Made by a program: the position numbers and the translations under genes. The notes beneath the pieces were generated by a model. That model saw only the letters and a program-made list of their open reading frames with translations. It ran no database searches and was not told the DNA's origin. Shown in pieces: positions 16,331-20,774 of a DNA stretch of 64,000 bases (position 1 is its first letter; every line of letters begins with the position of its first letter). The stretch is from Phreatobacter aquaticus (GTDB lineage Bacteria > Pseudomonadota > Alphaproteobacteria > Rhizobiales > Phreatobacteraceae): contig NZ_CP039865.1 of the NCBI RefSeq assembly GCF_005160265.1, forward strand, positions 2,380,828 through 2,444,827, in the 5' to 3' direction.

Positions 16331-16980
16331 GGGAAGGGGCGTCCGGTCGCGGAAAGCGAAAAAGCGGACCCCCGAGATCGCGGGCCCGCATGCCTTGTTG
16401 CGGTGCACTTATAGGACGCGGGCCACCGGCGCAATCAAAACAGCACGAAGAGACGCGATTGTGCCGTGCAATCATTGCCCTCGCATTATGGGAGACCCTT
16501 GCAGAATGCGAGTCTCAATCCGCGAGAGAGTGGCTTGATTGCATCAACCGAGATCGAGAGGTTGTGGGCGTGGGGTCCGCAACCCACCACATTTAGCGAA
16601 TATGGCTCGGAGGTTGGCGTGGCATGCCGGGTGCACAACTGAATTCGAACCGGCATCTGGTATTGCGTCGCCGGCTCACTGGCTAGGATGGGAGGGGACC
16701 GCAATCTGCGACCCCTTGAAAGCGATCTCCTCCCCTCCATCCCACCAACATCCTCACACCGTCCATCATCGATCGGTCCGTTCCCGGAACGCGGCCATGC
16801 CGGGACGCGTGCATATGCCAGCCCCCGAACACAGTCGTTCCGCCAGCAACGTCTGAACCTGTCGGTACGTAAATTGCCGCTTGAGGCTGCCAGCGGAATT
16901 GTGCAAATGTTTCCCGATTAGAACGGCTAGAAACTAGCCGTCACGCGAGCGCGTCGGGCAAATCGACGAGGGAGGCTGCA
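16331..16980. other. Long non-coding region with several inverted repeats
   Basis: No convincing gene is seen in these 650 bases between divergent typA and the DPYD-repeat gene; the short open frames lack ribosome sites and protein-like composition. Three inverted repeats stand out: CTCGCATT/AATGCGAG (16480-16487 with 16505-16512), an imperfect GGATGGGAGGGGA/TCCCCTCCATCC pair (16686-16698 with 16731-16742), and a perfect hairpin just before the next gene (16923-16941). A small RNA or long leader is possible but unproven. Confidence 0.4.
16923..16941 (+). promoter_or_regulatory. Leader hairpin of the DPYD-repeat gene
   Basis: A perfect inverted repeat, ACGGCTAG-AAA-CTAGCCGT, ends about 40 bases before the GTG start codon. 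It could be an operator or a leader stem; no U tract follows, so it is not a classical terminator. Confidence 0.4.
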
Positions 16981-17331
16981 GTGACCGATTCCAATAAGAT
17001 CGACGCCGAAAAGGCAGACGACCTCGAGGCCCCGTCGAATCCGCTCGACCGCCGCTTGTTCATGTTCAAGACGCTGCTCGGTGCGGCTGCACTGACCGCT
17101 GCGACCGCCGTGACCACGTCGACACCGGCCGAGGCCCAGCGCCTGCGAGTGACCGACAGCGATCCCTACGATCGCGAGGGTCGTGGCCGTGGTCGATTCG
17201 TACGCCGGCGTGGCACTGACGCCGATCCCTATGATGCCGAGGGCAGGGGCCGGGTGCGGACCTATCGCCGCCGTGTGCGCGTGACGGACAATGATCCGCG
17301 CGATCCGCGCGGTGGTGGACGCGGCTGGTAG
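16981..17331 (+). CDS. Small exported DPYD-repeat protein
   Basis: A 116-residue protein of unknown function. A cytoplasmic-looking acidic N-terminus leads to a Tat-like DRRLFMFK (23-30) and a hydrophobic stretch ending PAEA|Q near residue 52. The mature part consists of three spaced copies of a TDxDPxD motif: TDSDPYD (58-64), TDADPYD (79-85) and TDNDPRD (102-108), the first two followed by xEGRGR, separated by Arg-rich linkers. The Asp spacing recalls acidic metal-binding loops. The start is GTG, preceded by GGGAGG. The oxygenase gene begins 14 bases downstream, so the two are probably co-transcribed. I do not recognise a characterised family. Confidence 0.72.
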   Translation: MTDSNKIDAEKADDLEAPSNPLDRRLFMFKTLLGAAALTAATAVTTSTPAEAQRLRVTDSDPYDREGRGRGRFVRRRGTDADPYDAEGRGRVRTYRRRVRVTDNDPRDPRGGGRGW

Positions 17332-17345
17332 AGCGGCCTGATATC

Positions 17346-18524
17346 ATGACCTTGGCCACCGCCGCCTTTGAGCTCGCGTTCGCCGGCTTGAAGGCCGAGG
17401 ACGGCCTTAAGCTGCGCGAAGCGGGCTCGATGCGCCATTTCAAGGCGCAGGACCGTTCCCGCTTCGGCAAGCTGCTGTCCATCCGCGATCTCGACGCGTT
17501 CCTGGCGACGGGCTCTGCACAGGTGCCCCGGGTGGCCATGGCGGATTCAGGGCGGAATGGCTCTGCCGCCGTGCCGGAGGAAGATTTCACCTTTGGCGAC
17601 GGAAAGGTTGACCCCTCCAAACTCTTTCCACTCTTCGATGCCGGTGCGACGCTTGTCGTCTCGCAGTTCCATGAACTGCACCCGCCGCTGGCCGACTTCT
17701 GCCGTGGGCTGGAGAAGGTCTTCCAGCACGGTGTCCAGGCCAATATCTATCTGACACCGCCCGGTGCCCAGGGATTTCGCACCCATTTCGACACGCATGA
17801 TGTGTTGGTGCTGCAGGTGTCGGGCAAGAAGCAATGGCGCGTCTGGAGCGACACGGCCCAGCCTCACGCGACGCGCCGGACACCCTGGGATGGCGCTATC
17901 TACAAGCCCGACCAGTCGAAAGCGAACGACCTCCTGCTGGAGGCCGGGGATGTTCTCTATGTGCCGCGCGGCGTGCTTCACGATGCATCGGTGCAGCCGG
18001 GTGGCGAACCGTCCCTGCACATCACTGTCGGTTTTCTGGACCAGACCTGGGCCGATGCGCTGAAGGCGGCCATCGACCAACTCGAGCAGACTGAGCCGAA
18101 GCTCCGCGAGGCTTTCCCGATGTGGCGCCTGGGTGACGAGGCGAGCCGTCCGGCGCTGGTCAAGGCTGCGGCCGAGCGGGCCGCCATCATCGGTAGCCAA
18201 TCGGGCGTCGACCTCGCGGCCATGCATTTTCTGCAGGCGCTTGCTCAGGATCGCATGCCGATGTCGGGCAGGACGCTGGTAGCGCCGGCGCTGGGTGCGG
18301 ATGACCGGCTCGTTCTGGCGGACGCCGTCCATCATTACGTCGTTCCGGTCGGGGATGGCGCGGAACTGCGTTGGTCCGGTGCGCCTGTGCCTTTGACCAT
18401 GGTCGAACTGGGCTGGCTGGAAAAGCTGTCGCAAGGCGTCTCGCCAACGGCGCTTGGCGGCGGTGAGGCCGCACTGGCATTCTGCCGACGGCTGTTTGCT
18501 GTAGGCCTGCTGGTCCGTATCTGA
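17346..18524 (+). CDS. JmjC/Cupin_4-type 2-oxoglutarate and Fe(II)-dependent oxygenase
   Basis: A 392-residue cupin protein resembling ribosomal-oxygenase (YcfD/RoxA) and FIH-type hydroxylases, which hydroxylate amino acid side chains in proteins. The iron triad is visible: His147 and Asp149 in FRTHFDTHD, and His212 in VPRGVLHDA. The double-stranded beta-helix continues with LVLQVSGKKQWRVW and PSLHITVGF, and the C-terminal 150 residues are a helical/winged region as in YcfD-like proteins. It directly follows the DPYD-repeat gene, which makes that exported protein a possible substrate. A housekeeping ribosomal substrate is the alternative. Confidence 0.8.
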   Translation: MTLATAAFELAFAGLKAEDGLKLREAGSMRHFKAQDRSRFGKLLSIRDLDAFLATGSAQVPRVAMADSGRNGSAAVPEEDFTFGDGKVDPSKLFPLFDAGATLVVSQFHELHPPLADFCRGLEKVFQHGVQANIYLTPPGAQGFRTHFDTHDVLVLQVSGKKQWRVWSDTAQPHATRRTPWDGAIYKPDQSKANDLLLEAGDVLYVPRGVLHDASVQPGGEPSLHITVGFLDQTWADALKAAIDQLEQTEPKLREAFPMWRLGDEASRPALVKAAAERAAIIGSQSGVDLAAMHFLQALAQDRMPMSGRTLVAPALGADDRLVLADAVHHYVVPVGDGAELRWSGAPVPLTMVELGWLEKLSQGVSPTALGGGEAALAFCRRLFAVGLLVRI

Positions 18525-20505: not shown

Positions 20506-20774
20506 ATGTTCAACAGACGAAGCTTCTTCACGACGCTTTTTGCCGGTGCAGCGATCGCCGGATTGGCTGTCTCGCAGCGCGCTGACGCCAGCGAACTGCT
20601 GGAAATGCAGGGCACGCAGAGCCCCCTGCGCCTTCGCCGATTTCGCCCGGTCTTGGCAATGGTGGCATGACCCGCAGCGGCGCAACCCAGCGCGGTGAGG
20701 CACGTCGCGGCCGCTGGTATCGCCGCAATCGCCGGATGCATCGCCGTCGGTGGATGCGCCGCAACGCCATGTGA
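20506..20774 (+). pseudogene. Small Tat-exported Arg-rich protein gene, apparently frameshifted
   Basis: The ATG at 20506 (after ACGAGGAGA) opens a 54-codon frame with a Tat-like MFNRRSFFTTLFAGAAIAG leader and a cleavage site near ADAS, ending at 20670. The -1 frame is open from about 20586 to 20774 and encodes a basic tail (RGRWYRRNRRMHRRR, then WMRRNAM) of the kind found on small exported Hyphomicrobiales proteins. A shift at the five-C run at 20622-20626 joins the two into a protein of about 90 residues that stops 30 bases before a strong terminator. Mutation, base-call error or real frameshifting cannot be told apart here. Confidence 0.6.

Follow-up and report, generated by a model that had tools for sequence, protein, structure and literature searches.

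What does a JmjC-type oxygenase do beside a gene for a small, apparently exported repeat protein? The question is raised by a locus of Phreatobacter aquaticus lying in a 64,000-nucleotide stretch of contig NZ_CP039865.1, which is called the window here. The open reading frames agree with the original prediction of a 116-residue protein with three TDxDPxD motifs, whose stop codon lies 14 bases ahead of the oxygenase start (Table 1). The further proposal, that the oxygenase modifies Asp, Arg or Tyr residues of this protein before export by the Tat pathway, is weighed below.

The repeat protein and the oxygenase

Table 1. Features of the locus, in window coordinates.
Feature	Position	Strand	Basis
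Probable ribosome-binding site GGGAGG of the repeat-protein gene, 5 bases before GTG	16970..16975	+	Sequence; inferred
Exported repeat-protein gene, 116 aa, GTG start	16981..17331	+	ORF and homologues
N-region and Tat-type signal; RR (residues 24-25) at 17050-17055; AEA-Q cleavage-like site after residue 52	16981..17136	+	Sequence
Repeat 1, TDSDPYDREGRGRG	17152..17193	+	Sequence and genus alignment
Repeat 2, TDADPYDAEGRGR	17215..17253	+	Sequence and genus alignment
Repeat 3, TDNDPRDPRGGGRG	17284..17325	+	Sequence and genus alignment
JmjC_2 (PF08007) Fe(II)/2OG-type oxygenase gene, 392 aa	17346..18524	+	Pfam, predicted fold
H147-x-D149 of iron site	17784..17792	+	Kept in 86/86 repeat-associated oxygenases >250 aa
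H212 of iron site	17979..17981	+	Kept in 86/86 repeat-associated oxygenases >250 aa
C-terminal winged-helix-like domain: strands from residue 322, helices 352-385	18309..18521	+	Secondary structure of model

The repeat protein, without a Pfam or NCBIfam match at E <= 1, consists of a charged N-region, a twin arginine, a hydrophobic stretch and the sequence AEA-Q, followed by RLRVTDSDPYDREGRGRGRFVRRRGTDADPYDAEGRGRVRTYRRRVRVTDNDPRDPRGGGRGW. Its Tat-type signal is predicted, having been called by eye, and an RRLF-x-FKT segment is invariant across an alignment of 11 copies from the genus (10 genomes, of which the window genome contributes two). The three motifs read TDSDPYD (residues 58-64), TDADPYD (79-85) and TDNDPRD (102-108); all nine of their Asp residues are invariant in the 11 aligned copies, and the Pro of the first motif is replaced by Thr in one. 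The Tyr place is taken by Y, R, N or H within the genus and, as judged by eye, mostly by S, N, R or G elsewhere.

The repeats follow a general consensus, [TS]D-x-D...D-x-x-G-x-G-R(G), which was surveyed in 631 units from 127 proteins using [TSN]D and GxGR as anchors. Asp occupies position +3 in 626 units and the place three before Gly in 626, figures inflated by selection because the proteins had been picked by a pattern with those Asp residues in at least two units. In 558 of the units (DPxD type) the inner stretch is 7 residues long; in 66 (DxGxxxD type) it is 10. Most of the proteins (118 of 127) carry 3-7 units, and with a looser pattern the count rises as high as 14. RR followed by an uncharged stretch was recognised in 94 of the 127 on a rough test, many of those failing it being cut frames or having a charged residue after RR (LGRRLLVLR), and 41 have a lipobox-like site. 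An acidic TLxDDxI-like motif, a candidate recognition element, precedes RR in 14 of 151 frames and is confined to one part of the family.

The repeat chain is predicted to be disordered, with a mean pLDDT of 50 in a model built from seven aligned sequences only. Measured against the window copy, the fraction of nonsynonymous sites that differ within the genus is 0.03-0.11 for the mature repeat part (9 comparisons), 0.23-0.36 for the N-region and its signal, and 0.21-0.25 for the oxygenase (8 comparisons); synonymous differences are similar across the compared parts (0.50-0.65). Having the lowest nonsynonymous difference, the mature repeats are thus the most constrained of the three parts, though predicted to be disordered.

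The oxygenase scores 94.7 bits against the PF08007 JmjC_2 profile (cut-off 22) and retains the intact His-Asp-His site (H147, D149, H212) anticipated for it; K162, N133 and Y135 are likewise kept in all 86 repeat-associated oxygenases longer than 250 residues. Its AlphaFold model (pLDDT 93, pTM 0.90) has the JmjC, helical and C-terminal winged-helix architecture of ribosomal oxygenases, with borders set by eye. The nearest solved sequence is NO66 (E 4e-22), followed by MINA53, YxbC and YcfD, and NO66 is also the top structural match in the PDB, with a TM-score by query of up to 0.76 over 445 alignment columns including gaps; the corresponding values reach 0.73 for MINA53, 0.60 for R. marinus YcfD, 0.56 for E. 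coli YcfD and 0.37 for FIH. The label 'FIH/YcfD-type' first given to the enzyme is therefore imprecise, NO66 being nearest by both sequence and structure. Judging from the model, the C-terminal winged-helix-like domain is a possible leader-binding part; a Pfam search of six oxygenase C-terminal parts gave no match to a known RRE family and one weak match to DUF3072.

Elsewhere in the window, at 20506-20774, a small Tat-type ORF (MFNRRSFFTTLFAGAAIAGLAV...) ends at 20670, and an Arg-rich ORF (MTRSGATQRGEARRGRWYRRNRR...) in another frame overlaps it. By eye, both may belong to a single small exported protein, rich in Arg, whose reading frame changes.

Distribution of the pair

The window genome (4.97 Mb, one contig) has a single JmjC_2 gene. 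It also carries, absent from the earlier account, a second repeat gene (L002, at G000:C1:599161-599460) that is 77% identical to the first over residues 17-116, with no oxygenase within the 3.3 kb examined; a TctC-type-looking gene follows it. Both genes of the pair occur in 10 of 12 Phreatobacter genomes, adjacent in all 10, and neither occurs in the other two (G002, 100% complete; G009, 85%). One of the ten oxygenase genes, in G010 (C5:21416-22585; L010, L035), is interrupted by an in-frame TAG after residue 166, its repeat gene being open. Weak matches to the repeat protein in five genomes outside the genus (E 1e-4 to 0.01), a second weak match in G005 and one in the window genome contain no repeat unit in any frame, and a scan of genome contigs with the single repeat protein gave no match.

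In a wider search, a profile built from seven oxygenases matched at least 593 stretches of genome contigs, at least 542 of them confirmed, from which the best 80 were kept: six from the window's genus, two from Hyphomonadaceae, and the remainder mostly from Acetobacteraceae of the Roseomonas group or related records. Using a pattern that demands at least two units, repeat frames were found upstream on the same strand at 74 of these best 80 loci, 113 frames in all, with none on the opposite strand or downstream; the nearest frame lies within 200 nt at 73 of the 74 (1066 nt at L075), and 29 of the best 80 loci have two or more. At locus L111 a degraded repeat copy stands upstream of the oxygenase (89 aa). 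At five loci (L043, L044, L063, L065, L082) no repeat gene adjoins the oxygenase, and all five genomes encode repeat proteins elsewhere, in stretches that have no sequence in common with the oxygenase loci and contain no oxygenase motif. In other families of the order, an oxygenase relative was found in 4 of 49 genomes: inspection by eye revealed two repeat proteins on the opposite strand at L015, an atypical DPYD-rich Tat-type protein at L016, and no repeat protein beside the L017 and L018 oxygenases.

A wider conserved operon was sought and rejected, since across 30 loci only the oxygenase (30) and the repeat gene (15, a BLAST count whose filter masks repeats) are widely shared. TctC-type genes recur in 8 and SapC in 5, and the remaining genes common to 4-6 of the 30 resemble opposite-strand frames or local synteny. 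At 23 of the best 80 loci (e.g. L059:5025-5351) the upstream DNA carries a SapC-family gene (PF07277) on the opposite strand. All 23 are Roseomonas-group, Acetobacteraceae or Rhodospirillales records, and no such gene occurs in the 79 stretches of the class sample described below. Four Neoroseomonas loci (L054, L058, L068, L078) have three tandem repeat genes ahead of one oxygenase, with lipobox, VQYRTG and GRGRPRTG subtypes. Searches of mobile elements with the oxygenase returned 139 plasmid records, every one below 60% identity, and two weak records of one cyanophage; the repeat protein of G297 had no plasmid match by BLAST with simple repeats masked.

In 385 Alphaproteobacteria genomes chosen without regard to repeats, PF08007 gave 80 matches in 68 genomes, and adjacent repeat frames were present in 11 of the 79 stretches other than the window's, 9 of the 79 ending at a contig edge. 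A 12-row repeat profile run on the same genomes matched 11: the window's and the ten with adjacent repeats. Placed on the tree described below, matches outside its rows being assigned by best BLAST score, the oxygenase clade occurs in 12 of the 385 genomes; repeats adjoin 11 of 12 clade matches vs 0 of 67 outside the clade, and repeat proteins occur in 11 of 12 clade genomes vs 0 of 373 others (Fisher 2e-20, counting relatives as independent). The exception is G261, where a clade oxygenase was found and a repeat protein was not, in an assembly that is 92% complete and divided into 320 contigs.

In a sample of 398 Pseudomonadota genomes the repeat profile matched seven, all Alphaproteobacteria. 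Three were new, each with a divergently oriented oxygenase beside one repeat locus (by eye) and further repeat loci lacking an oxygenase in the stretch examined. Gene order varies, the repeats being downstream in L155 and L161 and divergent in three genomes and L015. Repeat genes also stand away from the clade oxygenase in five genomes (G000, G063, G207, G290, G297), so that a single enzyme may act in trans on several substrates. In G063, contigs other than that of the oxygenase (C29, C43, C44) encode repeat proteins whose open frames span 303-386 residues.

The tree, a quick maximum-likelihood reconstruction with SH-aLRT support only, comprised 83 rows representing 165 sequences less locus L111; the repeat-linked label of L015 and L016 was given by eye, and the oxygenases of the three new genomes were left out. 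All 23 repeat-associated oxygenases fall within one set of 25 rows (SH-aLRT 97), whose only members without adjacent repeats are L063 and L150. E. coli RoxA sits apart with 8 other rows (SH-aLRT 100), and on this separation RoxA/YcfD orthology of the oxygenase was rejected; the tight clustering with ribosomal YcfD/RoxA enzymes that would have spoken against the original prediction is not seen. Next to the repeat-linked rows, the tree as drawn places a set of 41 JmjC_2 proteins (e.g. L017, L182, L196) that lack such repeats and may have other dedicated proteins as substrates.

A proposed route to a modified exported protein

The one constant companion of the oxygenase clade is a Gly-rich repeat protein with three conserved Asp residues per repeat, and, as in RiPP-type loci, a small leader/core-like precursor gene stands beside the gene of a dedicated enzyme. 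The conserved neighbourhood, which had been set in advance as the test and is seen in the genus, among the best relatives and among the clade matches alike, together with the separation from RoxA/YcfD, makes action of the oxygenase on the repeat protein the best reading. The genes, their link to one clade, the co-occurrence across genomes, the predicted fold, the intact active-site residues and the constraint on the repeats within the genus are computed results.

From here we infer that the repeats are the substrate, that they are hydroxylated, that Asp is the site and that modification precedes export. At a probability of roughly 0.75, we favour a two-part system in which a cytoplasmic JmjC_2 oxygenase hydroxylates a dedicated repeat precursor with a Tat signal, most likely on Asp, before export. 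The precursor, composed of a Tat-type signal and tandem repeats, would be recognised by the Fe(II)/2-oxoglutarate-dependent enzyme in the cytoplasm, where we place the reaction because Fe(II) and 2OG are there. A side chain in the repeats would be hydroxylated, most likely at C-3 of a conserved Asp; the modified, disordered chain would then be exported through Tat, after which the signal would be removed, or a lipid would anchor the chain in those relatives that have a lipobox-like site. Action in trans must be assumed, since the second copy in the window genome and many other repeat genes stand apart from an oxygenase.

The original prediction had named three residues as targets, of which Asp is a good candidate, Arg is possible, and Tyr is disfavoured because its place in the motif varies. 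Within the hydroxylation reading, we regard Asp as the preferred site at about even odds. NO66, MINA53 and RoxA place the hydroxyl on the side-chain C-3, according to the available text of PMC9994133. A counter-point is that NO66 and MINA53 target His, a residue outside the repeat consensus; as a target here His was rejected, there being none in the window repeats and any His in only 22 of 126 repeat proteins with a unit. Neither Tyr nor Pro can be a universal target, as the Tyr place varies and Pro follows DxD in 544 of the 631 units.

Modification of the same protein at Arg or Thr/Ser, or by another oxidation such as desaturation or cross-linking, seems rather unlikely to us. It would account for the Thr/Ser before the first Asp and the GxGR Arg, which, being anchors, went uncounted in the 631-unit survey and are constant or nearly so in 12 aligned triple repeats, and precedents exist in the hydroxylation of L16 Arg81 by RoxA (PMC9994133, in part) and of Orn in biphenomycin-type precursors by BipG, BpmG and PbsQ (PMC12707348, PMC12257519, in part). 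For Arg, the pocket argues otherwise: N133 and Y135 resemble NO66 and MINA53, unlike E. coli RoxA, which has L111 and I113 there, and the RoxA set has other residues at these places. Y135 aligns with a Tyr of NO66 that we take to be Tyr328. NO66 Tyr328 and MINA53 Tyr167 contact the substrate side chain, and Arg-substituted peptides are neither substrates nor inhibitors of these two enzymes, as reported in the available part of PMC9994133.

That the oxygenase instead targets a ribosomal or other cellular protein, the repeat protein being merely co-expressed, is improbable: most of its nearest solved relatives are ribosomal oxygenases, but its clade lies apart from RoxA, repeat proteins track that clade across the class sample, and they are present in all five genomes where the two genes lie apart. 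A non-catalytic role as chaperone or proofreading partner for Tat export would suit a dedicated partner and a cargo predicted to be disordered, yet is made very improbable by the universal retention of His-Asp-His and K162 in the repeat-associated enzymes.

If the repeats are indeed hydroxylated, the modified product might, speculatively, bind metal or form a surface polymer. Beta-hydroxy-Asp is a metal ligand, and the guess of metal binding derives from this. We tentatively suggest, as somewhat less than an even chance, that hydroxylation of many Asp residues yields a multivalent metal-binding or structural surface polymer, by a logic like that of collagen and EGF-domain hydroxylation before secretion.

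Relation to known systems

The pairing of oxygenase and repeat protein was not described in the literature searched, which left subscription journals mostly outside, and an exported, single-enzyme, tandem-repeat RiPP-like system of this kind looks undescribed. If the favoured reading is true, a dedicated exported substrate is added to a family, JmjC_2, associated chiefly with ribosomal proteins; a reason for using Tat over Sec is suggested, modification coming first and export after; and the locus supplies an enzyme and its substrate in compact form, with a simple code of repeats by which hydroxyls could be placed at many sites.

To our knowledge, NO66 (RIOX1) and MINA53 (RIOX2) have no exported repeat partner. 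They resemble the oxygenase in full-length fold (the TM-scores given above), in a sequence match over the JmjC part and in the Tyr at the Tyr328/Tyr167 place (read from the NO66 alignment), and differ in being only 22-23% and 19-20% identical to it, respectively, in structural alignments, and in being human enzymes with ribosomal His targets (PMC9994133, available text). RoxA/YcfD, the L16 arginine 3-hydroxylase, shares the fold family (TM-score 0.50-0.60 for the E. coli and R. marinus enzymes), but has its own well-supported tree set, the L111/I113 pocket in place of N133/Y135, and a ribosomal substrate.

Closer in arrangement are systems with genetically encoded precursors. BipG, BpmG and PbsQ are JmjC or cupin-like hydroxylases acting on such a precursor, though as one step among several enzymes and on an FHAFRF-type antibiotic precursor, and the available portions of their descriptions mention neither a Tat signal nor tandem repeats (PMC12257519, PMC12707348). 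RRE-like folds fused to PF08007 are reported from fish and algae, with the closest bacterial homologues in RiPP-like contexts; the repeat protein, the clade and its substrate are not described in the accessible part of that source (PMC12710340). Bufferins, which are processed by MNIO enzymes, differ in enzyme family, in their conserved Cys and in using Sec rather than Tat, and share with the system proposed here the principle that a dedicated iron oxidase alters an exported precursor; lipoprotein signals are present in about 16% of Buf2 (PMC12452194, available text).
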